A stretch of DNA of 64,000 bases, taken from a virus. The translations under genes and the position numbers were made by a program. The notes under the pieces are model-generated. The model saw nothing but the letters and a program-made list of their open reading frames with translations, was not told the origin of the DNA and did not search any database. Shown in pieces: positions 22,485-44,515 of the stretch (the first letter of the stretch is position 1; every line of letters begins with the position of its first letter). The stretch covers positions 1-64,000 of IMG/VR virus record IMGVR_UViG_3300002494_000025; one strand, 5' to 3'.

Positions 22485-25400
22485 ATGTTTGCAATTACTG
22501 ATGTAAGCAATGACAACCTCAAGTCCGTCTATCTTGCAGACAAGGCCTTCAAAGTAGAGATGAAATACAAAGATGGCGCTTGGAAAGACATAACCAGCTA
22601 TGTAGAGGCAATAGAAATTTTCGAACAGCTCACGTACGACGGGAACAGCCCGATGAACAAAGTCGGCATCAGCCTGAGCAACATCAATGGGGAGTTCTCA
22701 CCCGCAAAGGTGGGGGCTCCTTTCAATGAGCCTGTTGTTACAGGCTCTTCACGCACATTCTTGACAACCAAATTCCCAATTCGAATCAGCGTAACAGCCA
22801 ATAGCACGACATATACGATTTTTAGAGGCTATGCGCACACAGTTAAGGACGAAGGTTTGAAAGCGGCAATAGAAGCTTACGACATTCTCTATTACCTTGC
22901 ACGCAAAAGGTACAAGAAAGCCCTGAGCTTTGCCAATAAGACGGCGAAAGAAATTGTGCAAACAATTTGGAATGATGTTAAAGGCAAGATAGAAAGTGAT
23001 TTCGGCACCGTCATCGCACTGACTTTCATTCCGGACACACCAACCAGCAAGGCACTAATAAACACCGATGCAAAAACTTATCTTGATGCCCTAAACAAGA
23101 TAGTTTCCGGCACTGGCGGTTATTTCAACTACAGAGCTCTCACCAATGAGCTGATTTTTGTATTCATGGGGGATGCAAGCTACGCAGAACCTTCCACCAC
23201 AAATGCTGTATCTTTTGCAACTACAAATACAATAAACAAGTTTAATTTAGAGCAGCCGGTGGATGTTACAAACTCTGTGACTGTCAGCGTAGATACCTAT
23301 GTTGACAAATACAATCCACCGCAAGCAGTTGACGATTGGTGGTACAAGTCCTTTGTCGACAAAGATGGCAAATTTGCACCAAACAACGGGATAATGCTAC
23401 CTGCAGGCTCTGTATCAAGTACCGATATTGATTTTGGGAGGGTTGGTTACGACCCAGAACAGCAGCTTGTACTGACGGTGTTTACATACTCTGTGGAAAC
23501 AAAAAACGATGGTGGCAAGATATATATAGCTGGTGGAAAGAAAATTGTCGCCATCGATTTTGGCAGTAACTTTTCAACTCCTGTTCCGTTTAATGTCAGT
23601 TTGGGCGATTGGGGGATGATAAAGGTACTGGATTACCAAATCAAAGCGCAAGGCGTCTGGTTAAAGATACAAAACAACACAGGGCTTAATCTTTCCATTG
23701 CTGAAGTAAGAATGCGTGTGAAGCCGTTGCTTGAAAGTGGCAAGAATACTGCGGAGTACAAGGTTAACGATCCAGACAATGAAATTTTCGTGGAACAAAG
23801 CATCGATGCAATATTTATAGAGCAAGGCGCAATGCAAAAGACAGCACAAGCTGTTCTGAGGCTTAGAGGCGCGCGAATCACCGGCGAGGTAGAGCTTTCC
23901 CAATTTGCCCCATTCCTAACAGTTGGCGGTGTGGTTAAGGTAACGCTACATGACACAAACTTTAACTCAACCGATGTGCTATTGACCGAAGTGCAGCACG
24001 CAATAAAGAAAGGGCTGTGCACTACAACCTTCCGGTTCGCTCATGTATTCTCACTTGCCACTACTGTCGCAAACGATTTGACCAGACCTGTGATGCCTGA
24101 AGCTTCCGGTGGAGCAAATATTGTAGGCAGCTTGTTGCCGCCAAGTACATTCGATGTCGACAACGAAAATCGGTACCTAAAAATCAGCATACCAAGAGTG
24201 AAAGAAGGCAACGGCAAAGAAAGCATTGCCAGATACTTTTTCGGCATCGACTGGGTTGAGACAGCTTCCTCTACTTTGTCCAAGCTCTATACATTTCTTC
24301 CACAGCCAGGCTATACATTCACAAGAAACAGTGTGGCATACTTACCAGCAGGTCCCTTGGTGGATGCAGGCAAGCCAAGACTTATAAAAAGCAAAACAAT
24401 ATCTATCGATGGCCCTACGACAAACTTAATAGAGCAGTTTGAGCCTGGGGCGAGTCAAGATTGGAGTATGTGGAACCATTGGAATAATGGAGCATACTGG
24501 TATTCCACCACTCAATACGACGATCCAGTTTGGGGCAAGGTTTTTTATGGTAGAGCTAAACGTGATGCGTGGGGCAATACATATATTTACAACTATTCAT
24601 CAAACATACCTGTTAATGCAGGTGTAACATATATTCTTAGTTTTTACATCAAAACGAACACGGACCGCACACAGTCATTTCTGGCCTACCTTACCCCAGA
24701 TTATAGTAACACTGTCGTTGCAACTGCCACACGAACATACAATCTCAGAGCAAATGAATGGATAAAAGTTGAACTACCACTTACACCCAACGTATCTTCC
24801 AACATACAATATGGTGTTCGATTTACAAATGTCCCAGACGGTCAAGAGTTCTGGATTGCATATCCACAAATTGTAGAAGACAAATACCCAGGTCAAGATT
24901 GGAGTAAATGGTCACATTGGGGTAATACATTGTATTGGAACACCAACATACAGTACGACGATCCAGTTTTTGGAAAAGTATTTAAGGGTGTTGCAGGTAA
25001 TGAATACAATAAATATTTGTATGATTATTATCCGTATACGTTTGTACCTGGCGCCATATATACAATGAGTCAGTAGGGTGTAACAAACTTGATAGACCAA
25101 TGGGAACCTGGGGCAAGTCAGGATTGGAGTAAATGGGACCATTGGAATCAGACAACATACTGGTACTCCACAACACAATACGACGATCCGGTTTGGGGGA
25201 AAGTTTTTTATGGTAGAGCCAGACGTGATGTGAATGGTCACACATATATTTATAACTATTTACCAACAGTAACTATTAATGCAGGAACCACATATATAGT
25301 TAGTTTTTATGTTAAAACGAACACAGATCTTGTACAACCGTTTAGGGTTTACTTTACCAGTGTTCATACTTATAATTCCGTTAACGTTCAAGTAACACGA

Positions 25401-26717
25401 ACATACAATCTCAGAGCAAACGAATGGACGAGAGTTGAACTGTTATTTACACCTTCTCAAACATATTCCAATCAAAAATATGGTATTGAATTTGTAAACG
25501 TCCCGGACGGTCAAGAATTCTGGATTGCATATCCACAAATTGTAGAAAATCAATATCCAACTCAAAACTAGAGTGTACTGGCACAATATACAATGGGTAT
25601 TTGGTTACGTGGTGATACACAATGGACTGGAAATGTACGATTTTACGTTAATAATGCATCTACTAACCAAGCTTTACCAAATGGTGATCAAATTAAAACA
25701 ATTACCATCGATACCAATTGGAAATATTTTACGTGGACAGTAACACCTACTATAACACAAGTAACAACCGGTGGTTTGGGTATAGAATTTCAAAATCTAC
25801 CAGGGGGTTACACACTTTATGCATAGTTACCAAAATTTGAATAGAATACAACATAGACGGAATTTTTACCACTTCCAGTCTATGTACAAAAATCCGATTA
25901 TCCATTTCCAATTTTTAACCTAAATAATCAGTTTGACTTAAGATAGAATCAAGATTGGACAATCACCTTTGAATATATACCCTTTAACTCCGATACACAA
26001 ACATTGTTATCGAACCCAAAAACATTCACACTGTTTAGTTTGGGAACCCTTAATCCAGCAAATATAAAAAATATAAAAGAATATAATTCTGATGCAATGG
26101 ATTTCGTAAAAAGTTTATAGTTTTATGTGTCTCAATTGTTGGTAACATCTAATAATCTATTCGTACCATATAATATTAATATAGATAATCTATTAGTTAC
26201 AAATACACAAATTACTCTCACTTTAATGAGTCAATTTCAACACTATTCTGGTGAAAACGTTATTGTCACATCTACCTCACCAGTGACTATATAGTTAAAT
26301 GACTTCCTATTCAAAAAACACTTGGTTATCGTTACATATTCTAACACCACAAAAACCTTAACAACTATTGTAATACTATCAAACAATCAGATCTTACAAA
26401 CAAACATTCAAATTAAATCAACTGTAGATGATGTTATGTGGACATTTAGATATTTATCTAATATGAACTATACCGACGGAGATTTAATACTTGGTGGTGT
26501 TATTGATTCTAAACAACTAATTAGTAGTTATAAATTATAGAGTTTTGTATTTAGACCAATTACTATATAGAATGCATTATACAAGAATCTTACATTAGTG
26601 AAAAATTATTATACGAATCCAACAAATCTCAATACAAATGTATTTACAAGTATTACACTGGGAAAAGATTTACAAAGACGAAATTCAAACGGCTTTTATA
26701 ACGTATTAATTTTATAA
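22485..26717 (+). CDS. tail hub/receptor-binding protein crossing the code change (TAG read as Gln)
   Basis: One frame of 1410 residues if TAG is read as Gln; a standard reading stops at 25076 after 863. Residues 1-520 resemble siphophage baseplate-hub/tail proteins. A linker with FTRNSVAYLPAGPLVDAG and GPTTNLIEQ leads into carbohydrate-binding-like jelly-roll repeats (about 645-800, a truncated copy to about 863, and 868-1028), each beginning EPGASQDWS, then a TAG-rich C-terminus. There is no TAG in the first 863 codons and ten in the last 547. No frameshift, TAA or TGA interrupts the frame. The 5' part belongs to block A in composition and the 3' part to block B. It likely binds host surface glycans at the tail tip. 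Chimeric assembly is not excluded. Confidence 0.75.
24421..25571 (+). repeat. tail-domain repeats shared across the block A/B junction
   Basis: A domain of about 155 codons (24421-24890) recurs at 25085-25570, with a truncated copy between them (about 24895-25073). DNA similarity is high: a 30-nt identical block at 24849-24878 and 25518-25547, and a 26-nt identical block at 24729-24754 and 25395-25420. The repeats are the point where composition and code change, and offer homology for recombination or for false joining during assembly. Confidence 0.8.
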
Positions 26718-26734
26718 TAAGGGGGTTTATATAA

Positions 26735-27946
26735 ATGATTACCAAATCAACATCAAATATTGAAAACTTCCTTTCCCAAAAAGAAATAAAAGATCTATTA
26801 ACAAAAATTGTTAACATTGAACAACAACTAAATCAAATAACTAACTCTTAGTTTACTATAAATGGAACCTTAACATAGTCTGGATTAGTTGTTACGGGTA
26901 CTGCCCAATTTCCTGTCAATTCAATAAATGGTAGTTAGATTCTCGATAATACAATATCAACATAGAAACTTACTGATGGTTAGATTACAACATAGAAACT
27001 TGCAGCTGGTTAGGTTACTGCTTCTAGAATTGGTAACTATCAAGTCACATCGGATAAGATTTAGGATCAATCAATCCATTCATGGCATATTGATAGTAAT
27101 TAGATCCAAACATGGCATATCAATAATAATTAGATTACATCAGATAAGATATAGCAACTAACTGGTGATTTAGTTTTCTCAGAAACTGTTTCTGGAAAAG
27201 GTATTCATTGGAACAATAAAAATAATCCGGGTACTGATTATTAGTTCATTAAATATTATTAGGATGTAAGTGAATATTCATCATCATATGATATATCAAG
27301 TGGTTCTAATAATAACGGGACACTAATAATAGGTGTTGAAAAAGATCTTAATAGTACATCCGGAGAACAAGTTATCATACGGACTGGTTCACGACTAATA
27401 ATTGATTAGAATGCCGGTAATTAGACAACACAAGAACCAATCAACATTGTAGAATTTTGGAAAGAGGGTACACAAATGGCTAAGATTGATATAAACGGTG
27501 CTATATATGGTTCTAAAGTGTACAATGCAGTTTGGAATGACCTTGCAGAACTTCGTGATTAGGAAACAACAATAGAACCTGGTTATGTATAGTTTATGAA
27601 TGAACAAACTGGTAAGTTAACAAAAAAGTATCACAAATATGCAGTTGGTATTGTGTCAGATACATATGGTATTATATTAGGATTAGATTCCAAATCAAAG
27701 AAAATCAAAAAAGGACAAGTACCAATATAGATATCAGGACGTGTCTTATAGCACTTCTCTGGTAAACTAAAAGTTGGGGATTAGGTTTGTTAGTAGAAGG
27801 ATGGAACTGTTCGAAAAATGAAATGGTGGGAAAAAATACTCTTCCCAGAAAGATTAATAGGTATCGTTGATGAAATACCCATGTATGAAACTTGGGGTGA
27901 AAATAACGTAAAAGTTAATGGTCGTATATGGATTAAAGTTAAATAA
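26735..27946 (+). CDS. tail fibre with C-terminal autocleaved chaperone-like domain (TAG = Gln)
   Basis: 403 residues with 22 in-frame TAG codons, ended by TAA; GGGGG precedes the ATG. A short coiled-coil start is followed by a run of DGQITTQKL / NNQITSDKI-type repeats (about 60-140), the familiar I-T-x-x-K-(L/I) fibre repeat. The C-terminus has VYNAVWNDLAE and later ISGRVL, as in the peptidase G2/intramolecular chaperone domain of phage appendages, which folds the trimer and may be cut off. It follows the receptor-binding gene and belongs to the same late transcript. Confidence 0.75.
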
Positions 27947-28042
27947 CACTATAAACTTGTATCTGTATATGATGTGATTTACTGAAACTTACAATAGCAG
28001 AGTATATAAAACAATTACATTTTATAGGGGAGGAGATTGATT

Positions 28043-28705
28043 ATGACGAATGTTTGTCAACAAGAATCCATGGATAAAAGAACACAGGATATTAATGATA
28101 TTATGTATGTTACAAATGAATAGTTACAATTCTTCCAAGATATGAGTTTTAATCCGAATTTCTTGAATCACATGAGTGGTATACCATTAAGAACCATTAC
28201 TGATTTTATACAGATAGAAAAAAATCGTATAATCGATATCATCAATGGTAAGGTTTCAAGTGATTTCAAATTCACAAACCAGAGTTTAAATGTATCATGG
28301 TTTAATAATACATTATTGGGATTTCTTGAACGACTGAAAAATTTTGTATATTATAACAAAACGAATGATAAACAAAAATCACAAATTAGATTGTTATTAC
28401 ATTTTCTATATAATTGGACACAATTACTTGATGATAAGACATTGAGTGGGGAGAAACAAAAACTACAAAATATGATTAACCAAATAACTGAAATAATTGA
28501 TAATTTTTACAGTTTTGTGGAAATAATTTACCTTATGAGGGAATAGGGAGAGAATTTAAAGAAGTGGAATTCCTTCCGTCCGGCAGGATTGGATATTGCA
28601 CCACATATGTTAGATATACTTTATCAAAAACTTGAGAATGGTGAACAACCAGACCTGTTATTACAACAAAAATCAGAAGAAATGTTAAAACAAACAGAAC
28701 AATGA
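28043..28705 (+). CDS. unknown helical late protein (TAG = Gln)
   Basis: 220 residues with two in-frame TAG codons (near residues 27 and 168), ending in TGA, which therefore remains a stop. GGGGAGGAG lies 7 nt before the ATG. Predicted almost wholly helical, Gln-, Asn- and Leu-rich, without cysteine motifs after residue 5. No family recognised. It lies between the fibre gene and the first radical SAM gene, so it may be a fibre-assembly factor or part of the modification cassette. Confidence 0.6.
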
Positions 28706-28751
28706 TACAATCATATACTCCAAATTGTCAACATAGAAGGATGTGATAATA

Positions 28752-30236
28752 ATGTCAAATGTAATAAAACAGTCTGTAACGAAGTCAAGAAATATTGATA
28801 GTTTGAAATTTGTATAGATTGAACACGAAAGTAGTTAGGTTTGTAACCTATAGTGTAAGTATTGTTATATTCCCAAACTTTCATCATAGACAAAAACAAA
28901 TCAATTGATCATTGAGTCAATCAAAAATGGAACATTCGTTGATTATCTAAAAACAATATATGATAAAGATAAACTTGAGTCGTACTCATTATGGGGTACA
29001 GAACCAACAATATTAATACCAGTGTTTATTAAATATAACTTTTTTGAAACACTACTCAACGAGTTTCCCAAACTACACACATTTTCATTATCTACAAATT
29101 TAATTAGAAATATTCATACACTAATCACATTTCTAGAACATGTTGATGAATTGTAGGTTAAGTTAAATAGACACATTAATATTGGTATACAATTGAGTTT
29201 AGATGGTATTAAGGAAATTAATGATAAAAATCGTATTTTGATTACCGGTGATGAAAACCATGAGATTGGTTCTTTTGATTTAATACTTGAAACTCTGCAA
29301 AAATTATCGGAATATTATAAAACACATGAATTCAAAAATATCCGAATATCACACAACTATAAACCAACAATTGATGGTGAAGACATTAAATGGTTATTAT
29401 CAACTCCAGAAAAATTACTTGAAACACATAAATTGTTTGAGTATATTACATCGTTGTTTTTAGATGTTAATAAGAATGTTTCAATTCAGACAGGAACATC
29501 ACTCACATTAGCAGTTCCTGGAAGTTATACACCTGAAGATGGTGTGAATTTTTAGAAACTAATACAGATGTTACACGATGAAGTTGTTCCATATACACAA
29601 TCTCATAATAGTACATTTGTATTTGTAGTACCATATGTACATGATCTTGTACAATTACTTAGTAACACACTTGTTAATATTGATACCCCACGAACAAGAA
29701 ACAATTCAGCACTCTCTTGTTCTTAGGGTGACACAATGATTGGACTCTCTCCAGATGGTCAAATAAGTATCTGTCATTCCACATTTTTCTTCTCAAATCC
29801 AGAGTATCTCAAAATCTTCCTTGACACACCATAGTATCAATTAAAACAACGAGACTTTATAAAACAATATTAGATACTGACACCCAACATTAATAGTCCT
29901 AATTATGAGTTTGAAGAATAGAGATTATTGTATGTAATACGTAGTTATCACGATTACTTACGTATGAGAAAAGATACAATATAGACACAACTATTATTTA
30001 CTGCCAAGTATGGTAATTCAAATGTTGACAAACTCCTTCTTGAAGATAAAACATATTTACAAATTTAGTAGTTGTTTTTAACATCAAGATTTGCATGTCC
30101 ATTTAATTCAATAGCACTAACAGGTACACTACATACTCAACCACAATCAATAATTAATATATGGTAGTATGGATAGTTTAGAAAAATCTTCAAATATGCA
30201 TTGGATGAAATGAAAACAATTGTAAGAAGGGGTTGA
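28752..30236 (+). CDS. radical SAM protein with twitch-like C-terminus (TAG = Gln)
   Basis: 494 residues with about 15 in-frame TAG codons, ending in TGA. The 4Fe-4S-binding motif is CNLQCKYCY with cysteines 31, 35 and 38; the Gln inside it is a TAG codon. Downstream are LSTNL, a SLDGIKE motif and, near the end, C-x-x-G..LSPDGQISIC (Cys323, Cys341), as in the first half of SPASM/twitch domains, plus Cys449. Such enzymes make carbon-centred radicals for peptide crosslinks or other peptide and small-molecule modifications. It is paired with a second radical SAM protein and a glycosyltransferase-like gene. Confidence 0.8.
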
Positions 30237-30241
30237 TATAT

Positions 30242-31837
30242 GTGATTGTGGAAGTCCAAATTACAGATACAAGTGATGAATATAAACAGTCAAGTAAACA
30301 AATAATCAGTAACTATTTAAACGATACATATTTTAAGTAGTGGAGATTAATATACAAACTCAGAAAAGAACACCCTGAATTTTCAAGAATGGAATTAGAA
30401 AAATTACTACCAAATCAAGTAGTTGTTCAAAGTGCACTTGAACTAAATTTTGGTACAAACTGTTCTACAACATGTACGTACTGTTACTTGGATAGATTTA
30501 GTCGAAAAAGTGGTAAATATGATGAAACCAAATTGTATCCATTTAGTTATACACAATATGAAGAAAATTTACGAAAGTTTTTAAAGTTCTTAGAAATTAA
30601 CAAAATGACACCAATATCAATTGACCTGTTTGGTGGAGACACGATATTTAATAAATATGGTTTACTCACACTTGATATATTGTATGAACACTATTCTAAA
30701 CTCCCAATAGAGTACAAACCATTTGAAATTGTAATTCCAACAAATGGTACATGGATTAGTTCAGATAGTTTAACCGAAAAATAGATATCATATATTGAAA
30801 AATTCCGTAACATTGGAATTGGTTTGTTTTATTCATTGTCATTTGATGGATTGTTAGAATTACATAACAGACCAAGTTTAATTGAACATGTACTACAACG
30901 TGATAAAAAATCAGAAGAATATGTTGACAAAATGTTTCGATTATAGAAACAATATCATATGGGATTCCATCCAATGGTTTACTCTAACAAGATTGAATAT
31001 TGGATGGATAACTTTATCTGGTTCCAAAAAATGTTTTACAAGTATGGTATTAACCCATTTAGTTTGTATCTATTGGAAGTACGTAATGTTGAATGGTTAC
31101 CACGTCAATAGGTTGAGTTGGGAACATTTGTCAGATTTCTAACAATATTTGCACATAAAGTGTTTGGGTATGTGGGAAATACAATTGTTGTGGATGAAAA
31201 TGATATGAAACAAAGAGAACGATTTCAACAATAGTGGAATATTTTGAATAGTCCATTTACAAAAATATATCGTGGTGTTGGATGTTCATTACAAACAACA
31301 TTACAACTATCCGTATAGGAATTAACAGTATCACCATGTCATAGAAACAACTATAAAAATCAAGTCGGTTTCAAATTCATAATCAGTGATAACAATTACT
31401 CACTTGATATTGAACCATATAATTTTGAATATTATATGTTACTTAAAACATACAATGTAACGAACCAACCATATTGTCAAACATGTATACTCCGAAATAC
31501 TTGTAGTGGACTTTGTCCTGCATCACAGTATGAGAACTTTGCAGAACCAACCGTACCAATACCAACCACCTGTATGTAGGAATATTTTAAAAATATTGGT
31601 ATCATATACACATTATCGGAACTTGGATTTATACCACAACTTAACAATAATTATTCAATGGATTTAATCATGAAATTTATTCAAGAAAATCCTAAATTTG
31701 TAAAGTTGTTAAAATCAAAGGAAGATGTTATTCACCAAAAAATACAACAATTTAAAGAATTAACAAGTATTCAAAATGTTGATAGTATACCAATATTTAC
31801 GGATTATGAACGTAAAATTTTTTTCAAGGAGGTATGA
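30242..31837 (+). CDS. radical SAM/SPASM protein, peptide-maturase type (TAG = Gln)
   Basis: 531 residues from a GTG with AAGGGG 7 nt upstream, seven in-frame TAG codons, TGA stop. Radical SAM cysteines are 74, 78 and 81 (CSTTCTYCY); DLFGGDT, PTNGTW and SLSFDG match later core strands. The C-terminus has Cys348, Cys366, then C-x2-C-x5-C-x3-C at 412, 415, 421 and 425 and a final Cys, the SPASM signature that holds auxiliary Fe-S clusters in enzymes modifying ribosomal peptides and proteins. It starts 5 nt after the first radical SAM gene ends. The substrate is not known; the His/Tyr-rich proteins just downstream are candidates. Confidence 0.85.
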
Positions 31838-31844
31838 TATTTTT

Positions 31845-32972
31845 ATGATGTTACAGATAGATATTAACTTACTTCAACAACACAATTTTGATGTTAAAAA
31901 GATCTTATCTAATATAGATAAAAACTCACCAACGTTTATATTCATTGGTCTTAGTTATGGTGGTGGTATTGAAATTTCAACCAAAAGATATATAAAAATT
32001 ATGAGTTCTGTATTGGATCGATTTTATCATAGTTACAACCTTATACACATTTTTGAACAAGGTTTGTCTGAACAAACTGTTTATGATCTTTATAAACAAC
32101 TGTTAACATATAACATTAAATTAATATTCATCAATGAAGTTGGTTTAGACAATAGATTTTTGAAAATACTCAGGTTAATACCAGATTACAAACTTGTACC
32201 AATATATTATCACTATCACTCAACAAGTAGTAATTTGTTTAAATCGGTGAATTTTCAAGACTTAATAAGACCATTTGTGGAAAATTTTAATGTTAAGTTT
32301 ACAACACCGGTAATGGCAACATATCAACTATGTTTGGAGAATCAATTTTATGATTGTACGTATGTACCATTTCCAATAGATCCAGATAATGTTAACAAAC
32401 AACTTGTACCAACACATGAAAGATTAATCGATTTTTATATTCAGAAATCAGTTCAACCACATACACTTAAGTTATTATTACAATATATCTGTGACAATGA
32501 GAAAACATAGATAATACGATATTTAAAAGATATAAGGTCTGATAACACAAAACATATACTTGAAGAAGTTACTCAAATTGTTGAATAGTACAAAAATAGT
32601 AACATTATTTACAAACCACATGATTCTTTGATTGATAACATTGACTATTATTATAGTATATCTAAATTTTATTACACACACCCACAATCAGAATTATCAT
32701 CAATTGCAACGTTGGATTAGATGGTAAATGGTTGTGTCCCAATCATACACAATCTTAATACACATAACTATACCGATTATTCTGATTATAAAAAATATTC
32801 ATTATATTAGATATATCAATCACCAGTTGAAACTGATGAACATTTTATTACAACTACTGTTCCTGAAAAACTTAATTAGTGTGATGATGATTTTAGAAAA
32901 CAAATGAGGGATTTTGTAATCGATAACTATTATTATACAGTTTTGAAATTCTTTGAAACTATTTGTGTGTAA
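31845..32972 (+). CDS. GT-B glycosyltransferase-like protein (TAG = Gln)
   Basis: 375 residues, five in-frame TAG codons in the C-terminal third, TAA stop. AAGGAGG at the end of the previous gene serves as ribosome binding site. The N-terminus has a GLSYGGGIE loop, the middle has YVPFPID (like the interdomain linker of GT4 enzymes), and near the end SELSSIATLDQMVNGCVPII resembles the E..g....EAm..G.PVI nucleotide-sugar motif. Similarity is distant. It is in one transcript with two radical SAM genes before it and two repeat proteins after it, suggesting protein or fibre modification. Confidence 0.55.
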
Positions 32973-33038: not shown

Positions 33039-33512
33039 ATGGGTTTCTCATGGCAACAATCTATAAGTAGAAATACTGTTATCACATAGTAGCAGATAAA
33101 TGAAATAGAAACAAATGTACAAACTTTATTAAATAGAGTTTGTTATATACATTATGTTAGTCAAAATACAAATGATTATTTAACAAACCAAGCAGTTCCA
33201 CACTATACAGGACATCAACAAACTCATTATGTAAATCATTACAACCCCAATCATACTGGGTTCCATTCAGGTTATGACAACTCAAATCAGACCTCACACT
33301 TGACATCATATGTTACGGGTGATAAAAGTACATACATGAGTACACATGTTATTACAAATAATACAACTCAAAATAGTACACATAATAGTGGAACATATAG
33401 TGGATATAATTCAACATATTATATAGGTGATGATAGTTCATATGATACAAGTAAACAATTAACACATAATTATACAGTTTATAATCAACATTTTATGAGT
33501 GTTATAAACTGA
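33039..33512 (+). CDS. His/Tyr/Asn/Ser-rich repeat protein A (TAG = Gln)
   Basis: 157 residues, with two adjacent TAG codons near residue 16, TGA stop, GGTGGTG upstream. A short helical head (about 1-48, with INEIETNVQTLLNRVC) is followed by about 105 residues made almost only of His, Tyr, Asn, Ser, Thr and Gly, with words such as HYTGH, NHTGFHSGY and YSGYNSTYY and about seven N-x-S/T triplets. The head resembles that of the next gene. It could be a metal-binding beta-structured fibre needle like the HxH region of T4 gp37, or a substrate of the adjacent modifying enzymes. Confidence 0.65.
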
Positions 33513-33556
33513 CTGGTAACATTTATTAACCATCTACTAAAGTGGGTGAGAATTGT

Positions 33557-34393
33557 ATGTCTGTCAATCAAAACAATATCATTACATTCCAATGGTTAAA
33601 CTCAAACATACTTCAACCACTTGAACAATAGTGGAAAAAACGAGACTTTGGAAATCCAACCTATAATTGTACATCATATACTATACAATATGATTTTCGG
33701 AATATCATTACTACTGGTAAAATAATATCTGTTGACGATATTAATCAAATAAAAACTAACATGGACTATTTATACGATAACTACTGTAAAACTCATTACT
33801 ATGGTCACAAACAGACTCAGTATTCATCATAGTATACAAACAATCTCAGTAGTCATCATGTTACTTATTATTATAGTCAAAATGTTACTCAAAATTCATA
33901 GCATTTATACAATTACGATAATGCAATCCAGACAGGTTATAATTCTGGTTATAAATCTGGTGTAGATAGTTCTCATCATCTATCATATTATTAGAGTGCA
34001 TATAATCCACATAATAGTACAAATAAAACAAATGTAAACAGTTCTAAACATATTACATATCAGAATAGTGTTGATACTGGACATAAAAGTAGTAACCATG
34101 GTACGTACTATAGTTAGAATAAAATTACATATTGTGGTACTCATTATGTATCTCATTATTCAGGTCATAATTCGTCCTATAATTCGTCTGATTATATACC
34201 TCATTATTCAGGTTATAATTCGTCCTATAATTCGTCTGATTATATACCTCATTATTCAGGTCATCAATCTAGTAACCTAAGTTCTAACCTTAGTTGGTAT
34301 GATTCTACAGTAGACCAAGTAGTAATTACTCCAAGAGACCCAGGTGGTGGATAGTCACTTGAGTGTGGTAATCATCATGTAGCATTTACATAA
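33557..34393 (+). CDS. His/Tyr/Asn/Ser-rich repeat protein B (TAG = Gln)
   Basis: 278 residues, six in-frame TAG codons, TAA stop. The head (about 1-75) contains INQIKTNMDYLYDNYC, matching repeat protein A. The body is low-complexity His/Tyr/Ser/Asn with a 16-residue tandem repeat beginning HYSGHNSSYNSS, then a short tail with PRDPGGG and LECGNHH. Many N-x-S/T triplets are present. It is the last gene before a terminator that it shares with the opposing SbcC-like gene. Likely a late structural spike or fibre and the best candidate substrate for the radical SAM and glycosyltransferase-like enzymes upstream; this is inference. Confidence 0.65.
34154..34270 (+). repeat. 48-bp tandem repeat coding HYSG(H/Y)NSSYNSSDYIP
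   Basis: Two full 48-bp units (34154-34201 and 34202-34249) differ mainly at one His/Tyr codon, followed by a partial third unit. The period is 16 codons, so the frame is kept. Confidence 0.85.
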
Positions 34394-34468: not shown

Positions 34469-36196
34469 TTAATTTACAACAGACACTTCTATTGTAGAGA
34501 GATTGGTATCATAGTCTTTCTTAATTTGAACATTTACGTATTCAAATGGAATTTCCTGAATATTGTTGTTACTGATTATTACCTGATAGTCATATTGTTT
34601 TGCAAAGTCATAAAGTAATTGTAAAATTTTCAAAACATTTGAACCATCAACACCATTAAAGAAATCATCAAAAATTAATACTTTGAGTTCAGGTGCTGTT
34701 TTGAATATATTTAAGATTGTAAGAATTGTAAGAATAAAGATAATTGATACTTTCTTACGTTCACCATTTGATAATAGTTGATACGGTATGAACACACCAT
34801 CCCTGATAATACCGAACGAGATACTTTCATCATCGTATACAATTTCAAACTCTTCATTTTTATTCAACACATATGAACTATATGATTTAGCAATACTATT
34901 CATTTTACTGATATATTGTGATAAGAAATTTTTTCGTACTGGTGACTTGACATTTAGTAGTTCAATTATCAGATTTATATGTTTTAATTTTGTATCTAAT
35001 TCTTCAACAAGTTTGTTTTTCTCAGTGATTTGTTGTTCAATTTGTTTTATGTTTTCTTCGATTTGTTTAACTTGGTTATCATTTTGTTCGATTTGTTCAT
35101 TTATCATTTTCCATACATCTCTGGCACGGTTATGTAATTGTTTAAATTCTTGTATCTTGCTCAATTTCGTTTTCAACTCATTATACTGTTGTTCTATTTG
35201 TTTCCGTTGATTTGATGTTTTCAATAAGACTTCAATTTCGTCGTTTATTAATTGCGTATAAACATCAACATCACCTTTTGTGATTGGTCTATAACAAGTG
35301 GGACATTTTTGTAGTTCCTTTAAATGATTTAGTTCTTTTATCTTTTTTTCGTGAGTTTGTTCCGAAGTTTTCAATTCTAATAACTTTTTTTCCGTTTCAT
35401 TTATTTCATGTTTTATAGATGTTTCCATTGTTGTAACAAATTGTGTAATTTCATTACTTTTACCATTGAAATCTATCTCCAATTCAGGATTAAAGTACTT
35501 TTTTAATTCATTTAAATCGTTCATATACTTATTAAGTTCATTAACCTTTCTTTGGATTGTTTCAACTGAAAACTGTTGTTGAATATTTTTTAATAAACTC
35601 TCAAACTTATTTTTAGAAGATTTCAACGTTTCAATTTCAGACATTAATTTCGATTGTTGTGTCTGTAATGTTGATTGTTGATTTTTAATTTCCTTAATAT
35701 ACTCTTCCAAATCTTTATTATAAATGATTTTCTCAATAATTCTAAAAATTTGAACTGATGATAAGTCATATATTTGTTCTTTGTTCGGAATAAATACATG
35801 TGTAAGTGAATATATCTTATTAATATCTTTTATAATACTCTCTACAAAATAGTCAATTTTATCTTTTATTCTAATATTAAAAATATCTGGTTGAATTGTT
35901 ACATCAGATTTTCGACTATCAAATATTCTTGTTATAGTATACGTATGTGTATCATCTTTTTTAAATGTGACAGAAATCTTGGAATCACCTTCCGAACCAA
36001 TACGTTTCAAACTTTTAAACGATTTTATTATATTTAACGTTGACAATATACTATAGACAATTGAAGTTTTACCAGAACCGTTTGTAATGTTAGTATCATT
36101 ACTGTTTAATAACACGATGTTGTAATTATCAGGGATTTCAACACTAACATTATCATATACAGTAATATTCTCAAGTTCGATACGAGAAATTTTCAT
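34469..36196 (-). CDS. SbcC/Rad50-like recombination ATPase (T4 gp46-like)
   Basis: 575 residues, no in-frame TAG, TAA stop, GGGGG before the ATG. An N-terminal P-loop (NGSGKTS, about 39-45) and a C-terminal LSNGERKK signature with Walker B LKVLIFDDFF frame a long coiled coil. At its centre is a CPTCYRP zinc hook near residue 295. This is the Rad50/SbcC architecture at the short length seen in T4 gp46. With the SbcD-like nuclease coded at 46.1-47.2 kb it should process DNA ends in recombination-dependent replication. The two partners are unusually far apart (about 10 kb). A promoter-like motif lies 43 nt upstream. Confidence 0.9.
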   Translation of the reverse strand: MKISRIELENITVYDNVSVEIPDNYNIVLLNSNDTNITNGSGKTSIVYSILSTLNIIKSFKSLKRIGSEGDSKISVTFKKDDTHTYTITRIFDSRKSDVTIQPDIFNIRIKDKIDYFVESIIKDINKIYSLTHVFIPNKEQIYDLSSVQIFRIIEKIIYNKDLEEYIKEIKNQQSTLQTQQSKLMSEIETLKSSKNKFESLLKNIQQQFSVETIQRKVNELNKYMNDLNELKKYFNPELEIDFNGKSNEITQFVTTMETSIKHEINETEKKLLELKTSEQTHEKKIKELNHLKELQKCPTCYRPITKGDVDVYTQLINDEIEVLLKTSNQRKQIEQQYNELKTKLSKIQEFKQLHNRARDVWKMINEQIEQNDNQVKQIEENIKQIEQQITEKNKLVEELDTKLKHINLIIELLNVKSPVRKNFLSQYISKMNSIAKSYSSYVLNKNEEFEIVYDDESISFGIIRDGVFIPYQLLSNGERKKVSIIFILTILTILNIFKTAPELKVLIFDDFFNGVDGSNVLKILQLLYDFAKQYDYQVIISNNNIQEIPFEYVNVQIKKDYDTNLSTIEVSVVN

Positions 36197-36238
36197 ATTT
36201 CAACCCCCTTTATACTTTATTTAACAAATACTATCCAA

Positions 36239-36260
36239 TAATAATATGTTGAAATTTACA
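36239..36260 (-). promoter_or_regulatory. early motif TGTAAA-N8-TATTATTA, copy 1
   Basis: Read leftward: TGTAAA (36260-36255), 8 nt, TATTATTA (36246-36239), 43 nt before the SbcC-like ATG. One of eight copies upstream of block B units. Confidence 0.7.
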
Positions 36261-36292
36261 GTTTATTTTAAAATTTAAATGAGGTGACATAA

Positions 36293-36928
36293 ATGGAATA
36301 TAAAGATGGGTTTGTATTTATAGATGATAGTAATAAAGTTGTAAGAGACACACTATAGTTCGTAAAATAGTCGATGTTTAACTTATATTCATTACAAAAA
36401 GTACATCAATTTTATTTGAAATTTGAATCAAACGGTAAAATAACACAGGATTTTATAAATCTACTCAATGAACGATACCAATCAATTCAAAATTAGATAC
36501 CACAATGGAAGTTAGAAACAAATACTGTTACATATTCAGGAACTGAGTACCACATACCAACTGTCTTAACCATAGAAAATCCAACAGTCACAGTAACTTT
36601 TTTAGAAACAAAAAATTTTGACATTTATAAAACATAGAAAAAATATTTGATTGTTGATAGAAACATATCCAATACGGACAATTTACTCAACAATAAATAC
36701 ATCATACACAAACCGACAAATTACTTTACTAAATTGGATGTTACATTATTTAGTTAGAAATATAAACCAAATAATAATGATATATCCCCCTATCTTACAG
36801 TCACCTTCTACAATTTGTACATAAAAAATATTTCTATTGATACTCAACTCAATGTTAACAACACTGAATTAGTATATACAACAATAGAATTTGCATATAC
36901 TCAAGTATTCTTAACACCAAGAGATTAA
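36293..36928 (+). CDS. tail-tube-like paralogue 1 (TAG = Gln)
   Basis: 211 residues, five in-frame TAG codons, TAA stop; GAGGTGAC precedes the ATG. The first of six consecutive proteins of 211-253 residues that share a T4 gp19-like outline: a short helix, a mid strand set around HIPTVL..NPTVTVTF, a helix, and a last strand with the Y-rich form (here IEFAYTQVF). It is the most diverged of the six. Likely a component of the tail tube or of the tube-baseplate junction in a contractile-tail phage. Confidence 0.55.
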
Positions 36929-36945
36929 CTATAGAGGTGACATGA

Positions 36946-37623
36946 ATGTAGTCAGAAAAGGATAATTTACTAAAATATGATGATATGATTCATAAACTAT
37001 AGGACGATGTATAGTTTTTTAATTCATTCAAAATTATGGTTAGGAAGGTTAATTTTGAGGAAAACCTAAATAATAACCTCAATACACTATTACAAAAAAT
37101 CATGAGTAATTAGGTTTTATCCGCAAATAAACCAAATTATGAACGTGAGACATACTATGTTAGTGATAACGATATTATCACACGTTTAAATTTCATATTC
37201 TTTTTCGTAAACAGTATCGAAGGTCTTCCATCACCTCATATAGAAACAGAAGAGTATAGTTTTATTGGTAGAAAGTATCAAATACCAAAACATCAAACAG
37301 TAGAACATGAGTTAAGATTTACATTTATTGAATTGGAAGGTTTATACATTTACCGTCTGTTTACAACATATTTGTTACAAATATTTGACTATTATAATGG
37401 TTATTTGAAACTTAATGATAGAACCCAATACACTTTTGATTTGTCAGTATATGGACAATATAAAGATACATTCTATGGTCAAGATGTGGACTAGTACTTT
37501 ACAATTAATTTCTACAACGTATTTCCAGTTAATGTAAACTTTGGAAACGAATTACAATTTAATAATACAAGTTATGTAACAACAACTGTAACATTCAGAT
37601 ATGATTATTATGAACAAATATAA
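36946..37623 (+). CDS. tail-tube-like paralogue 2; second codon is TAG (TAG = Gln)
   Basis: 225 residues, five in-frame TAG codons, TAA stop. The reading frame opens ATG TAG TCA, so translation needs TAG decoding at codon 2. The upstream GAGGTGAC site is 4-8 nt away, and the overlapping ATG at 36942 is in another frame. The core contains RKYQIPKHQTVEHELRFTF and ends VTFRYDYYEQI, matching the strand pattern of its neighbours. Part of the gp19-like array. Confidence 0.6.
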
Positions 37624-37655: not shown

Positions 37656-38369
37656 ATGGCACTATCAGACTTAACAAGATGGAAATTAACCACTGATAAA
37701 ACGTTATACGATTACACAGCATATCCAATTTTCCAAGTAATTGAGTTAGAAACAACCAACAATTTTATGAATTATGCAAAAAATGATACAATGTGGAAAA
37801 AGTTTCAAAATAATCAAAATAATCAAGATAATTCTTAGATCACTGATGACAGTAAATTGTTAGCCACACTACAAAATGTATTTGTACGTGCTACCGCTAT
37901 AACATTCCCAGGATTTACCTGTGAAGTAACGGAAATACCACAACAGTTTTCGAATATAAAAATATAGAACAAAGTTTCATTCACAAACGAAATAACATTC
38001 AATTTTGTGGAAGACGCAGAAAATAACATATTCAAATTCTTTAAATCGTGGTTAGATCAAATACTTCTAGTGGATTATCAAACACCTGTGTACGGTGCAC
38101 AATACAATATTGCAAATAACTACAAAGTAAATATCACATTCGGTATATATAAAATTAATAACACAATAATGAATACTGTAACAAAATCAACAGGTTATAA
38201 TGGAAAAGATGGTTTTGATAGTACCAACATAATATTCAAATTTAAACTTCACGGTTTCTTCCCCAAATCGATCAACAATCCAACATATGATTACACAACA
38301 TTTGAAATCGTAACACGTGATGTTGGGTTTACATTCGATTATATAGAACTATTAACACCATCACTATAA
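37656..38369 (+). CDS. tail-tube-like paralogue 3 (TAG = Gln)
   Basis: 237 residues, two in-frame TAG codons (codons 61 and 104), TAA stop; GGGGGTGA upstream. Contains VRATAITFPGF followed by a strand NEITFNFVED and KFFKSWLDQ, the gp19-type sequence order (S-x-x-x-P, then a F-x-E/D strand, then a helix with W), and ends VGFTFDYIELL. A member of the six-gene array, probably a tail tube or tube-initiator subunit. Confidence 0.65.
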
Positions 38370-38391: not shown

Positions 38392-39078
38392 ATGTTAATT
38401 AACAATTTATTACAAAGTACAAAAAGTACACCAAGTGTTTCAACAACTACATATTTTCTCGTAGACCTTACAAATTTTGTTAATATAATTGATAAGACTG
38501 GTAATTTAAAAAACACAATAAACAAATACGTTAAATCTGTTACACTCCCAGAAAGAAAAGTCGATACCACATCTATTGAGGGTTAGATGTTATCAGTACA
38601 ACATGCCCAACTTAAACAGACTTTTGATACGTTTCAAATCACATTCTTTGATGATAAAAACTTTACAATCAGAACAAATCTTCTAAAGTACATGTTAAAA
38701 TCAGTTTTCGATTATACCAATCTTGTCTACAAAAGTGCAAGTACCTACAAATGTGATATTACAGTTTACGTTATTAACAACTTCTTGGGCAGTGATGTAA
38801 CACATACAGTAACAATAAATAATAATAATGTAAATACCACTGATATATCAACAATTGAAAATATTATTAACAACACACCAACAAACACGTAGATAACCAC
38901 AGTACCAGTATATATCTATAGATTCTATGGTTAGTTCCCAACAGAAATACCAGAAATAACATTTTCCACAACTGATGAATTAGAACCAACAATTACCGTA
39001 ACATTTACATACGATTGGTACAAAATCGATACTACAAATACTGAAAAAATAAATTTGGCACAACTTAGTTTAATCTAA
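38392..39078 (+). CDS. tail-tube-like paralogue 4 (TAG = Gln)
   Basis: 228 residues, three in-frame TAG codons, TAA stop; GAGGTGAT before the ATG. The core reads KSVTLPERKVD, then FDTFQITFFDD with a following helix, the clearest match here to T4 gp19/gp54-like tail tube proteins. A YRFYGQFPTEIP segment (Gln coded by TAG) recurs as KFYGQFPTNLN in paralogue 6, also with TAG at that Gln. The C-terminal strand is VTFTYDWYKID. Confidence 0.7.
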
Positions 39079-39095: not shown

Positions 39096-39857
39096 ATGGC
39101 AATCAGTATAATAAATAGTGTTAACACATACAATGTTAGTACATACGACGCATTTAACAAATAGAAACTGTTTAGTAGACTACCTGTTGCATATTCAAAT
39201 GATATATCGTTCATCTTACGTGGTGAAGTAGTAAATGAATCAAATAATAATACATTCACTTCAAAACTTAACAACTCGTTTACAAGTTCAATAATGATAC
39301 GACTCAAATCGATATCATTACCAACTATGTCATTGGAAACAACAGAAATCCCCCATCTGTCATTCAACGCTAAAATGTAGTCTAAACCCACACTTGGTGA
39401 TGAAATAACAGTTTCAATAGTTGAAGATGCAAATTCAAATGTGTTCCTCAACTTTAAAGATTTTATTGAAACTTATTATAATTGGGTAATTTAGGTTCCA
39501 AACAATCCCAACTATAGTATCAAATTCCATATTGAATAGTTCTTAACACCATTGATACCAACTACTGTAAACAATATAAATTATTCATATTTATCGACAG
39601 CAAACACAAGTAGAAATAATGTAGCTGCAATAACAACTGTAAGTAATAATACAAACAACTTTACTGGAACACTTGGTACACGTATATTCAAAATAACACT
39701 GTATAATCCAATTATAAAGAACTTGAATCATCAAACCATGGATTATTCAAGCACCGAACTGATCAATAGAGATATTACAATTGGGTTTGAGTACTTTGAG
39801 TTTATTACATATATGTATGATAATAACAATCAACTAGTAAATGCACCATTGTTCTAA
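39096..39857 (+). CDS. tail-tube-like paralogue 5 (TAG = Gln)
   Basis: 253 residues, four in-frame TAG codons, TAA stop; GAGGTGGTGA upstream. Contains IRLKSISLPTMS and GDEITVSIVED followed by a helix, closely parallel to paralogue 3 (both have EIP and VEDA-N-F), and ends ITIGFEYFEFI. Paralogues 3 and 5 look like a closer pair, as do 4 and 6, pointing to duplication of a two-gene unit. Structural tail role inferred. Confidence 0.65.
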
Positions 39858-39892: not shown

Positions 39893-40609
39893 ATGTTGAT
39901 CAATAGTGTATATAGTGATCAAAATAACATTTCTTATACTGTTACAGATGTGTTTAGACCAAATGCGTTTATAGTTAGTTTTACAGAATTCAAAAGTGAT
40001 AGTAAATTGTTTGAACAACTAAATAGTTTTATTAACAAATACTTAAAAGTATGTAATATTATAGATGATGATAAAAATAATAAACCATTCACCGAAATAT
40101 CAAACAATTTTTTTGGTACTAACAATAACAGTAATACTACTACTACTATTACATTCCATCAAAACATGTTACCATTACTTGCAAAAAGTGTAACATTACC
40201 AGATATAAACATTGAAGTAAGTGCAATTGACTTGGGATTATGGAAAACACAAAGAATAGTAAATAGAAAAACATTTGATACTTTCACGATAACATTCCAA
40301 GAGTTACGTGGTTTACCAGTTAGGTTATATTTCTTAAAATGGATGTTTGCGTACATAATAAACCCGTGGAGAGGTTATCATGTATAGCCAGATCTATATA
40401 AATCAATCATCAACGTACAAGTATTAAAGAATATAGATAAATATGATCCACTTTATGTAGTCAAATTCTATGGTTAGTTCCCAACAAATTTGAATGAACT
40501 AATACTATCATATGAAAACAGTGACATTTTAAACACTGAAGTGACATTTGTATACGATTACTTTGATATTGAACAAACACAACCAAAACAAGAAGAACAA
40601 AAAAAATAA
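39893..40609 (+). CDS. tail-tube-like paralogue 6 (TAG = Gln)
   Basis: 238 residues, two in-frame TAG codons, TAA stop; GGTGGTGAT upstream. The core has LAKSVTLPDINIE, then TFDTFTITFQE and a helix with LKWMFAYI and NPWRGY, then KFYGQFPTN and VTFVYDYFDIE. It carries an extra Gln/Lys-rich tail. The last of the gp19-like array before a strong terminator. Confidence 0.7.
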
Positions 40610-40657: not shown

Positions 40658-40681
40658 AAATTTTATTCATTTACCTAACAA

Positions 40682-40945: not shown

Positions 40946-41004
40946 ATAAAACACCTCCTAACTCTTATATATTGTAAGTTCTATATATTTTTAAACACTT
41001 ACAT

Positions 41005-41026
41005 CAATAATATGTATAGTTTTACA
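41005..41026 (-). promoter_or_regulatory. early motif TGTAAA-N8-TATTATT, copy 2
   Basis: Read leftward: TGTAAA (41026-41021), 8 nt, TATTATTG (41012-41005), 60 nt before the start of the small leftward gene. Confidence 0.65.
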
Positions 41027-41084
41027 ATCTGTTTTTAGTAAACTTAAAAATGTATTGTTACAAACAAAATGTGGGGTGACATAA

Positions 41085-42911
41085 ATGTCTACAATAGTTT
41101 TAAACGATTGGAATTTAGTAAGTAAAAATATACTATACGTGGTTAAATAGGTACAAAAATTTTTAAGTAAAAACTTTATGCTTCCTGAAAAGAAAGTTAT
41201 TCTTTCTGGTTACTAGGAGTTTTTTAGTAAATATTTTTTCACTCTTGACAAATATCGACAATTCCTGGAAAAAGTCAATCCACCATTCCTCATATATAAT
41301 ATGTCAGAATTTACAATTAATCGTGGTACATTGAACCATCAGTGGAATACTACTGGTTTTGAATAGGTCGACTTACAAAAATATACACTGTACATCCAAA
41401 AAACATTTGTCAGAATACCAATCAACATTACGTTATACACTGACAGTCGACCACAATTGTTATATTATGTGTCTTTGTTCTTGGCAACTTTTGATGTTCC
41501 ACAGTCAAAAATAGTCGTTCGGTACCCCATCGAAATACCTGATGATGAACCAATCAAAGAAGTAATTAATGAAGAAGTATTCACAGTTCTATCACCCGAT
41601 AACATTACAGACCAGAGTGAATATATATTCGATGACAATATGAGAACGTTCAAACTTACCACGTCATTCACTTTGGAAGGTTATATCTTAACACGTATTA
41701 GATACTATAACAAAATTACACAAGTTAATTTACAATTCTCAAACACATCACAAACCATCCCTGTATAGGAACAAACATTGTATAACGATATTTCACAAAA
41801 TGGTATTGTCATCTCTATTAATACGAACAATACCACAATCCCCCTATTAACTTCTGAAATCATACAACAAACTGACTTGACAAATCCAACAGTTGAAACC
41901 AATAGTATAGAAGTTACTATCACAGACCCAACAAATAATACATCAACTACAGTACCTATTATAAGTAGTAATGAAACTAATACAACAACCGTCGTCAATC
42001 AATCGATAACTGTTAATAAGGATACTATACCATTTACAACTGTAAATAATTCCATCATTACACCAATATTAGAAAACAGTACAAACACAATAAAGTCAAC
42101 AATATATACACATATCAAACAAACAATTTATGACTAGACAATAAATAATAAGATTAACTTACCACAGAATATTATTAATTTAATTAACAATAATGTAATC
42201 ACAATTGAAAATGTATAGACACAAATATAGGAACAAATTGGTAATCAGTTAACACAAACATTTTCAACCAATTTACAAACATCATTAACGGGAACCATAA
42301 CAACTCAATATAATAATGTAATCAGTACTGTATTAAATCAAATCTTGGGACCAAATAATACAATTCCCGTTCAACTTCAAATCACATATAACGAAGATAC
42401 TCAACAACTATCAGTATCAATATAGAATATTAATGATATTCAACAAACAATTAACAATATAGTTACGGGTACTACTGAAAATATATTCAATAACATTACA
42501 AACACAACAATAATTAATGACACTATATCCAATTCATTAACACAAACAATGACACAGTCACAATCAACTTTTACCGTCACCGTAATGAACCCGAATAATA
42601 ATACAATATTAGCTGATAATTCACAGATCACCATATCAAATGAAGTTACTCAAACGTTAAATAATGTACTTGTTAATCAAGTATCAGGTGTTTATTCTAA
42701 TACTATCATGAACAACTACAACAAATTCATTCAAGGAACACAACAATCATCAACACCAATTATTCCACTCTCAAAATTAGAAAACGTAAACCTCAACTAT
42801 AACATTAACGTTAACTATCGTATATCAGAAACAACAAGTATATACACAGTACCACAAACACCAGAAGATTACAATAATAACGAATGGGTTGTTATATCAT
42901 TAAAATTTTAA
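41085..42911 (+). CDS. large Asn/Thr-rich structural protein (TAG = Gln)
   Basis: 608 residues, eight in-frame TAG codons, TAA stop; GGGGTGAC upstream. The first 210 residues look globular. Residues about 225-560 are dominated by Asn, Thr, Ile, Gln and Val, with repeating beta-like strings and Gln/Asn-rich linkers. This is typical of long fibrous or sheath-like phage structural proteins. No enzymatic motif. It follows the gp19-like array and precedes nuclease genes, so a baseplate or fibre role is plausible. Family not recognised. Confidence 0.6.
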
Positions 42912-42926
42912 GTGGGTGGATAAATT

Positions 42927-43406
42927 ATGAGTGGTAGGTACTCACGACAAAAGGGTTATAGAATAGAATATGAACTCACCAAACTTTTACAATCTTATCA
43001 CATTAACAATAAACGTGTACCATTGAGCGGTGGAAGTTGGTTAAAAGGTGATATTATCATTGAACACAATAACAGAACATATATATGTGAAGTAAAAGGT
43101 GGTAGTAACAAATTTAAAATAATATATGACAAATTTCTAACATATAGAGATACAACAAACAAGTCATGTGTCTATCTTGGTGATTATGTTCTGTGTGATA
43201 TCCCAACATTTGTAAAACTTCTAAATAACGAAACAAATATCATTAATAGTATTAGTGACATTTTGAACATAACCAAACTAAATATGATCAATGATTATAT
43301 CGATAAAAAAGATGTATTGTTCATCAAACGTGACAGAAAAGAATATCTGGTAATATTTAGAAAACAACTATTTAACTCATCAAGTGGGGGTGTTACAAAT
43401 GGATAA
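42927..43406 (+). CDS. Hjc-like Holliday junction resolvase / PD-(D/E)XK nuclease
   Basis: 159 residues, no in-frame TAG, TAA stop. The Hjc pattern is visible: RQKGYRIEYELTKLL with Glu14, the loop RVPLSGGSWLKGD with Asp42, and the strand YICEVKGG with Glu55 and Lys57. These are the metal-binding and catalytic residues of archaeal-type resolvases. It would cut four-way junctions in replicating phage DNA before packaging. It is one of the few rightward genes of this block without TAG, and its end overlaps the following TAG-rich gene by 8 nt. Confidence 0.8.
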   Translation: MSGRYSRQKGYRIEYELTKLLQSYHINNKRVPLSGGSWLKGDIIIEHNNRTYICEVKGGSNKFKIIYDKFLTYRDTTNKSCVYLGDYVLCDIPTFVKLLNNETNIINSISDILNITKLNMINDYIDKKDVLFIKRDRKEYLVIFRKQLFNSSSGGVTNG

Positions 43407-43992
43407 TAGTTTCAAAATGGGGTAGTTAAAATATGGTACAATATTGTTATTTCCAGTCAAACCATATGTGTATGATCTAATTTAGAAACATTTTGGTAAA
43501 CCAATTTAGGAATTGTTACTTTAGACATCCGGTGAAAAAGTAATACATTAGGAAATTCTTGTGACTGGTACTATCACACTTGCATAGATCGATAAAGGTG
43601 TACATCTAATTAAAAGATCATTATCAGATTTTAAACATCTTGTACTCGTTAGACACAAAGATATGGATACAGTCTCACTACAAGATTATTTAAATACAGT
43701 ACATAAACATTGGAATGTTCCGTATGATTATGCATCTTTGTTCTTAAACACATTAACACACATTGTTAATAATGTTCCAATTCTTGACCAGATTATTGAA
43801 AAATATATTCATACAAATGTACCATATGAGAATAAACAAATGTATATTTGTTCTGAAACTGTTTAGAGAGTACTTGAAGATTTGAATCTACCATTATTCA
43901 CTGACAGATCACCTGAATACATATCACCAATGGATATATTGAGAAGTCCTAATGTTGATTTGTTATATAAACCAATCGATTTTGAATTGTGA
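43399..43992 (+). CDS. permuted papain-like hydrolase candidate (YiiX/NlpC-P60 superfamily; TAG = Gln)
   Basis: 197 residues, seven in-frame TAG codons, TGA stop, start overlapping the resolvase gene. A strand GTILLFPV, then His50 in KVIHQE, a YDYASLF segment near residue 109 and MYICSETV with Cys151 follow the circularly permuted order (His before Cys) of YiiX-like and related papain-fold enzymes, which act on lipids, peptides or cell-wall crosslinks. Assignment is by motif order. A tail-associated cell-wall or lipid hydrolase, or a virion-maturation protease, would fit a late gene. Confidence 0.5.
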
Positions 43993-44029
43993 CTGTAATA
44001 TACTAATATCTCACACCTGGTGATACATA

Positions 44030-44515
44030 ATGTTTGATGTACCACTATCAGAAATATCCGAAATTCATTTTAAACCACATAACACAATCTCATTTATTAA
44101 AGTTGTAACAAAATCAAATAAAATTCGTATACACAATTTACATCACTATCCAATTAACAATATATTGTTATCTTTGGAAACATATTTGTATTCATACGAA
44201 CAATTAATGTTTAACATAAAAGAAGATTTGTAGTACACTATATTTGTCGAAATAAAACACTATGTTGAAAATAAATTATGGAAACAAAACTCACATTTAC
44301 ACATACCTTATAAGTTTGAATTAAAAAATATCAAAACAAATAAAATCAGAACATTAGATACTAACATTATTTTTAAAACGTATCAGGTTGAAAACAAGGA
44401 CTATTTGATTTATAAATCTTTACGTGTTAATTGGAATACATGTTACGATATGAATGATATAAAACATGATATAAAACAGAATGAAGAAATTGATGGTGTC
44501 AACAGTAGTCAATAA
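44030..44515 (+). CDS. unknown late protein, last of the rightward late block (TAG = Gln)
   Basis: 161 residues; one TAG at codon 68 joins two open segments, TAA stop. Standard-code reading would give a 67-residue product. Basic, alpha/beta, with paired strands around NKIRIHNLHHYP and KFELKNIKTNKIR. No recognised family. Weak GGTGAT ribosome binding site. It is followed by hairpin repeats and a terminator. Confidence 0.55.

Follow-up and report, generated by a model that had tools for sequence, protein, structure and literature searches.

The DNA analyzed here (the window; 64,000 nucleotides) corresponds to positions 1 to 64,000 of the IMG/VR virus record IMGVR_UViG_3300002494_000025, and its subject is the meaning of the codon TAG in the rightward genes at 25,074-44,515. 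The full record (135,374 bp, numbered in the same way) is a composite of a Thermotogales siphophage, a T4-like myovirus and a segment of Fervidobacterium chromosome. The siphophage block (1 to ~25.0 kb; GC 0.43) uses the standard code and encodes a terminase, an SPP1-type portal, an SU10-type capsid and a tape measure protein. The myovirus block, referred to below as phage B, runs from ~25.1 to ~130.1 kb (~105 kb; GC 0.28). The remainder (130.4-135.4 kb, to position 135,374) is bacterial chromosome carrying nrdG-nrdD-mutS, in an order and orientation that match host-lineage genomes (nrdD: 94% identity to genome G017; MutS: 75% identity to Fervidobacterium).

The virion and packaging proteins of phage B include a Gp23 capsid protein (PF07068), a gp17-type terminase, a contractile tail sheath and a T4 baseplate protein, all four of the features by which a phage is classed as T4-like here. 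Replication-type proteins are a family B DNA polymerase, a sliding clamp, an SNF2-type helicase and a RecA-like protein, and a further protein has DnaG-type zinc ribbon and Toprim domains. The four virion and packaging proteins and the family B polymerase are shared with T4-like myoviruses, from which phage B differs in its ~30% identity to the nearest named phages, its bacterial-type sliding clamp and its recoding. A preliminary description, made from the DNA alone, had pointed to crAss-like lineages. This link is contradicted by the T4-type hallmarks: Crassvirales have crass-type virion proteins and no contractile sheath, whereas phage B has Gp23, a tail sheath and a T4 baseplate protein.

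The rightward genes in question begin with a tail open reading frame (ORF) that has a CBM_4_9 domain (22485..26717; 10 TAGs). This is followed by a tail fibre protein identified by a profile match (26735..27946; 22 TAGs), an ORF at 28037..28705 (2 TAGs), two radical SAM proteins matching phrog_1802 (28725..30236, 16 TAGs; 30233..31837, 7 TAGs) and three ORFs at 31776..32972 (5 TAGs), 33039..33512 (2 TAGs) and 33542..34393 (6 TAGs). Beyond a TAG-free gene on the minus strand, which encodes an SbcC-like protein (34469..36196; phrog_77), the plus strand continues with ORFs at 36293..36928 (5 TAGs), 36946..37623 (5 TAGs), 37656..38369 (2 TAGs), 38392..39078 (3 TAGs), 39096..39857 (4 TAGs), 39893..40609 (2 TAGs), 41085..42911 (8 TAGs), 42927..43406 (no TAG, the exception in the set), 43384..43992 (7 TAGs) and 44030..44515 (1 TAG).

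TAG as a sense codon

Comparison of the ORF lists for table 11 and for a code with sense TAG, together with a scan of the whole record, shows that the rightward genes at 25,074-44,515 stay open solely when TAG is translated. With a minimum length of 100 aa, the region 22485-44515 has 18 rightward ORFs, of which 17 contain TAG (107 in total, every one at or after 25074); 13 end at TAA and 5 at TGA. In 13 of these genes the 4323 in-frame codons include 92 TAGs and neither TAA nor TGA, while ~352 TAA and TGA codons would be expected by chance (8.1% in the other two forward frames). The same is seen over the whole 25.1-130.1 kb block, in which 91 genes (100 aa or longer) together contain 396 in-frame TAGs and end at TAA (63) or TGA (28). 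The preliminary description was right that TAG is sense in these genes and that both TAA and TGA end them. Its limits for the recoding were too narrow, and its impression of an unusually rich set of recoded genes, although correct, was an understatement, as the rest of the record adds ~290 TAGs.

It had also described seventeen consecutive recoded genes, the tail gene at 22485 among them. Seventeen ORFs do contain TAG, but the run is interrupted by the leftward SbcC-like gene and by the TAG-free ORF at 42927-43406. The tail gene is open with TAG as sense; however, it spans the first junction of the record (~24.9-25.1 kb) and, as a fusion, is no ordinary example of a recoded gene. Its first 863 codons belong to the siphophage and are TAG-free, and at the junction the GC content of third codon positions falls from ~0.45 to 0.23, with a drop in GCN codons as well.

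TAG is unevenly distributed among phage B genes. It is abundant in structural and packaging genes (terminase, 22; sheath, 9; tape measure, 41) and absent from the DNA polymerase, clamp, helicase, RecA-like and primase-like genes. In the window, the TAG-free genes on the minus strand include those for a metallophosphoesterase (possibly SbcD-like; 46051..47229), the family B DNA polymerase (47300..49948), a C5 cytosine methylase (56572..57741), the beta-type sliding clamp (57840..59108) and the SNF2-type helicase (60344..62053), and a further recoded ORF with 10 TAGs lies on the plus strand (52635..53672).

Sequencing or assembly errors, or the decay of pseudogenes, are an extremely unlikely source of these TAGs. 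Assembly errors are possible at the junctions of a composite record, but the number of in-frame TAGs, the absence of TAA and TGA and the 91 intact genes all argue against such an origin, as do the position of TAGs at conserved alanine columns and the presence of a cognate CUA tRNA (discussed below).

The amino acid inserted at TAG

In the preliminary description TAG was taken to encode glutamine, a meaning that it has in crAss-like phages (NCBI table 15). Glutamine is the usual meaning of TAG in recoded phages, predicted and with experimental support (PMC9523058, PMC11210395), and the usage of CAA and CAG does not by itself contradict it. The terminase of phage B (record 82,615-84,237, minus strand) gives a different result. 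When it is aligned with distant T4-like terminases, conserved alanines stand opposite its TAGs (VDE-XX-F against DEAAF is one example). Scored against PHROG 2 with ten readings of TAG, it reaches 167.1 bits with alanine, followed by threonine (147.9), cysteine (147.3), serine (144.9), glycine (144.8), valine (144.3), tyrosine (139.3), glutamine (136.6, or 30 bits below alanine), lysine (134.5) and leucine (130.2). Against a profile of 84 homologues, for which all 20 readings were scored, alanine is again first (374.2 bits), cysteine is next (357.5), glutamine reaches 341.3 and tryptophan is last (321.1).

The residues of these 84 homologues, which were gathered with a query in which TAG was alanine, are 45.1% alanine (background 7%) and 0.4% glutamine at 20 terminase TAG columns. 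None of 20,000 random sets of 20 non-TAG columns reaches this alanine value (maximum 0.268), and the genuine GCA columns of the terminase are 42% alanine; TAG thus behaves like an alanine codon. A tally of this kind had been named beforehand as the check on the glutamine assignment, and the single enriched amino acid that it foresaw was found, but it is alanine. If TAG encoded glutamine, this residue would also make up 5.6% of the TAG-rich gene products, compared to 3.6% in TAG-free genes, and the acceptor identity of the CUA tRNA is that of alanine, not glutamine. A glutamine reading is accordingly considered highly unlikely.

Every other phage B protein tested also favours alanine over glutamine in its best-matching family: the tail fibre (54.5 against 43.7 bits; alanine first of 12 readings), a cytidyltransferase (53.8 against 48.3), the tail sheath (92.5 against 87.8) and the two radical SAM proteins (28725..30236, 46.8 against 45.0; 30233..31837, 50.3 against 48.4). 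Another small residue (serine, cysteine, threonine or glycine), or a mixture of alanine with such residues, is very unlikely, though somewhat less so than glutamine. Serine comes close to alanine for the tail fibre (53.6 bits) and is second for one protein of Aeromonas phage AhSzw-1 (see below). For the terminase, however, the small-residue readings lie 17-22 bits below alanine in both tests, serine at the TAG columns is no commoner than expected by chance (its share is reached in 4859 of 20,000 random sets) and the CUA tRNA has no long variable arm, a feature of serine tRNAs.

With alanine as its meaning, TAG accounts for 363 of the 555 alanine codons (65%) in the TAG-rich genes. This share of about two thirds suits a genome of 28% GC because all standard alanine codons contain at least two G or C. 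A codon-composition test that uses no homologues is unusable as evidence: GCN alanine drops to 1.05% in TAG-rich genes from 1.44%, but shifts as large occur in other residues and there is no per-gene correlation (rho -0.04).

The suppressor tRNA and the proposed timing of recoding

Phage B has an RNA gene cluster (record 118,483-119,172) consisting, in order, of tRNA-Ala(UGC), a tRNA with the anticodon CUA (118731-118806) and transfer-messenger RNA (tmRNA; 118813-119172). The label "Pyl" given to the CUA tRNA by ARAGORN reflects the anticodon alone. Its acceptor stem is GGGGGUG/CACCUCC (pairs G1:C72, G2:C71 and G3:U70), followed by A73 and an encoded CCA. G3:U70 is the main identity element for alanyl-tRNA synthetase (AlaRS), and with G3:U70 and A73 the tRNA is of alanine type by sequence. 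The acceptor end is closest to the tRNA-Ala of the phage. The body is closest to host tRNA-Trp (48 of 58 body positions; tRNA-Gly, 47; phage tRNA-Ala, 36), and the anticodon loops of tRNA-Trp and the CUA tRNA are CTCCAAA and CTCTAAA, respectively. The molecule looks like a chimera of a tryptophan-type body and an alanine acceptor.

The body and anticodon loop could suggest that tryptophan is inserted at TAG. Tryptophanyl-tRNA synthetase, however, reads G73 and the CCA anticodon, neither of which is present in the CUA tRNA, and tryptophan is the worst of the 20 readings for the terminase. Although 19% of the phage suppressors linked to theta ribozymes are assigned to tryptophan by isotype predictors (PMC10879173), this reading is the least credible of those considered. 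Among the 180 phage suppressors surveyed in the same study, the predicted isotypes are glutamine, tryptophan, isoleucine and tyrosine, with no alanine.

A 68-nt leader (95.6% identical between its copies) precedes both the tRNA-Ala and the suppressor gene. The promoter-like core of this leader, ATTGYAAATNTCAACATATTATTAT, is also present in front of TAG-free genes, including those for the SbcC-like protein (36238..36262, minus strand), DNA polymerase (49981..50005, minus strand), the methylase (site at 57789), the SNF2 helicase (62109) and others. In a count made without a motif model, 12 of the 32 TAG-free genes have the 8-mer ATATTATT in their upstream region, and none of the 43 genes with two or more TAGs does (Fisher p = 8.6e-6, a value that is somewhat optimistic because the k-mer was chosen as the most enriched). 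The T4 late promoter TATAAATA is not enriched upstream of the TAG genes. We infer that the motif marks the promoters of early genes, with the suppressor among them; in that case, the code would change before the TAG-rich genes are translated.

Decoding of TAG in phage B may proceed in the following way. Replication-type genes, being free of TAG, could be expressed first under the standard code of the host. The tRNA-Ala and the suppressor, which share a motif with these genes, would be transcribed along with them. The suppressor, with its Trp-like body and alanine acceptor end (G3:U70, A73), would then be charged with alanine by host AlaRS, and the TAG-bearing genes, including those for structure and packaging, would be translated with alanine at TAG while TAA and TGA remain stops. 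The phage tmRNA, which lies 6 nt downstream of the suppressor and encodes the tag ANEYIPLAA ending at TAA, may rescue ribosomes if suppression fails or release factor 1 wins. No match to the release factor family PF00472 was found in the record.

As judged from these sequences, the ~25.1-130.1 kb block is very probably a ~105 kb T4-like myovirus of Fervidobacterium, or a close relative, that reads TAG as alanine. The host is suggested by the tmRNA, which is 84% identical to that of the Fervidobacterium lineage (tag ANEYIPLAA compared to ANEYVPLAA). Several points weigh against this conclusion. The gp23 major capsid gene (record 110866-112305) is TAG-free though expected to be late, while neighbouring structural genes are TAG-rich; perhaps the most abundant protein cannot depend on inefficient suppression. 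The motif also lies once (79,818) in front of a gene that contains 5 TAGs. The residue tally comes mainly from one protein, the terminase, as other families have fewer homologues, and its query had alanine at TAG, with one search pattern spanning two TAG columns; without these two columns alanine is still ~39% at the remaining 18, and the PHROG test is free of this effect. The radical SAM margins are just ~2 bits, and serine is 0.9 bit below alanine for the tail fibre. Finally, the host assignment is indirect because the record is composite.

A second phage and related observations

A pattern for alanine-type CUA tRNAs (GGGG...CTCCA) was used to scan 2.9 million IMG/VR contigs. The one match was Aeromonas phage AhSzw-1 (MG676225), a cultured T5-like phage (Shenzhenvirus); other such phages may be missed because the pattern demands a close fit of the encoded tRNA. 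A wider scan gave an additional match (L219), but this lies inside a coding ORF, is not a tRNA according to ARAGORN and was set aside as chance. The CUA tRNA of AhSzw-1 has the same GGGG...CTCCA pattern, G3:U70 and A73, and adjoins a tRNA-Ala. TAG recoding is present in this phage as well and, having gone unrecognised, has fragmented the GenBank annotation (loci L198-L203), as in a 722-aa frame with 37 TAGs. Alanine is first for two tail proteins (831.4 bits, with serine at 827.3 and glutamine at 819.0; 1137.1 bits, with threonine at 1127.1 and glutamine at 1125.6). At 59 TAG columns alanine is 20.4%, compared to 6.2% expected, a value reached by 0 of 20,000 random sets. Scores of other proteins against PHROG point both ways: alanine is ahead for an SbcC-like protein and a fibre, glutamine for a helicase and some terminase families. 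The AhSzw-1 terminase is too distant from the T4-like profile to inform. AhSzw-1 likely reads TAG as alanine, with less certainty than phage B, from which it differs in its unrelated phage type, mesophilic host, 32 tRNAs, weaker alanine signal and the two proteins whose PHROG matches favour glutamine.

A phage code in which TAG is alanine, with a chimeric suppressor (tryptophan-type body, alanine acceptor) in the promoter class of TAG-free early genes, has probably arisen at least twice in unrelated phages, the Fervidobacterium T4-like and the Aeromonas T5-like phage. No report of TAG as alanine in a phage or bacterium was found in the open-licence literature, supplementary tables excluded. 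Alanine is the meaning of UAG in the mitochondria of some green algae (Hydrodictyaceae and Neochloris; PMC6821328), which likewise have an alanine-type CUA tRNA; there, however, the reassignment is permanent, in an organelle, and the tRNA is closest to tRNA-Ala(UGC), whereas the phage B suppressor has a Trp-like body and belongs to a phage of a standard-code bacterium. The TAG-to-glutamine phages (code 15, crAss-like; PMC9523058, PMC11210395) resemble phage B in having many genes with TAG and others without, a phage CUA tRNA and a standard-code host. Phage B differs from them in the use of alanine, the alanine acceptor identity on a Trp-like body, its T4-like type, the thermophilic host, the tmRNA beside the suppressor and the lack of a PF00472 match.

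Recoded phages are routinely annotated with TAG as glutamine because recoding calls rest on coding density, which is blind to the residue. If an alanine code has indeed arisen at least twice, the residue ascribed to many "code 15" phages needs re-examination. With alanine at TAG in phage B, table 15 annotation and structure predictions would be wrong at ~2% of positions in its TAG-rich genes. One tRNA whose acceptor identity comes from another tRNA could provide a phage with a private code in a standard-code host, and the tie between the suppressor and the promoter-like motif of TAG-free genes makes a timed switch of the code a hypothesis open to testing. Because AhSzw-1 is cultured, its TAG assignment is accessible to ordinary proteomics.

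The junction near 25.0 kb sits in a CBM-like repeat common to the siphophage tail gene and phage B. Copies with 76-79% DNA identity are found in the tail gene (24420-24905) and at two places in phage B (25083-25574; record 129520-129980, minus strand), and one exact 43-nt word is shared with 129593. This suggests an exchange of binding domains between phages of one host. The composite record may be an assembly chimera or a true recombinant; the inference of the code is independent of which applies. Neither the terminase nor the DNA polymerase of phage B leads to a close relative in IMG/VR, nor does the capsid of the siphophage, and the tail gene (22485) has no DNA similarity to named phages. 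Phage B gp23 is found in none of 45 Thermotogales genomes, one of which (G028) contains a prophage syntenic with the siphophage block.

Downstream of the phage B tmRNA (650 bp) is a partial second copy of its 3' end (record 119824-119912; ~92% identical), possibly a recombination or integration scar. The two recoded radical SAM genes (28725-30236 and 30233-31837) adjoin each other in the tail fibre region and possibly form a modification pathway.

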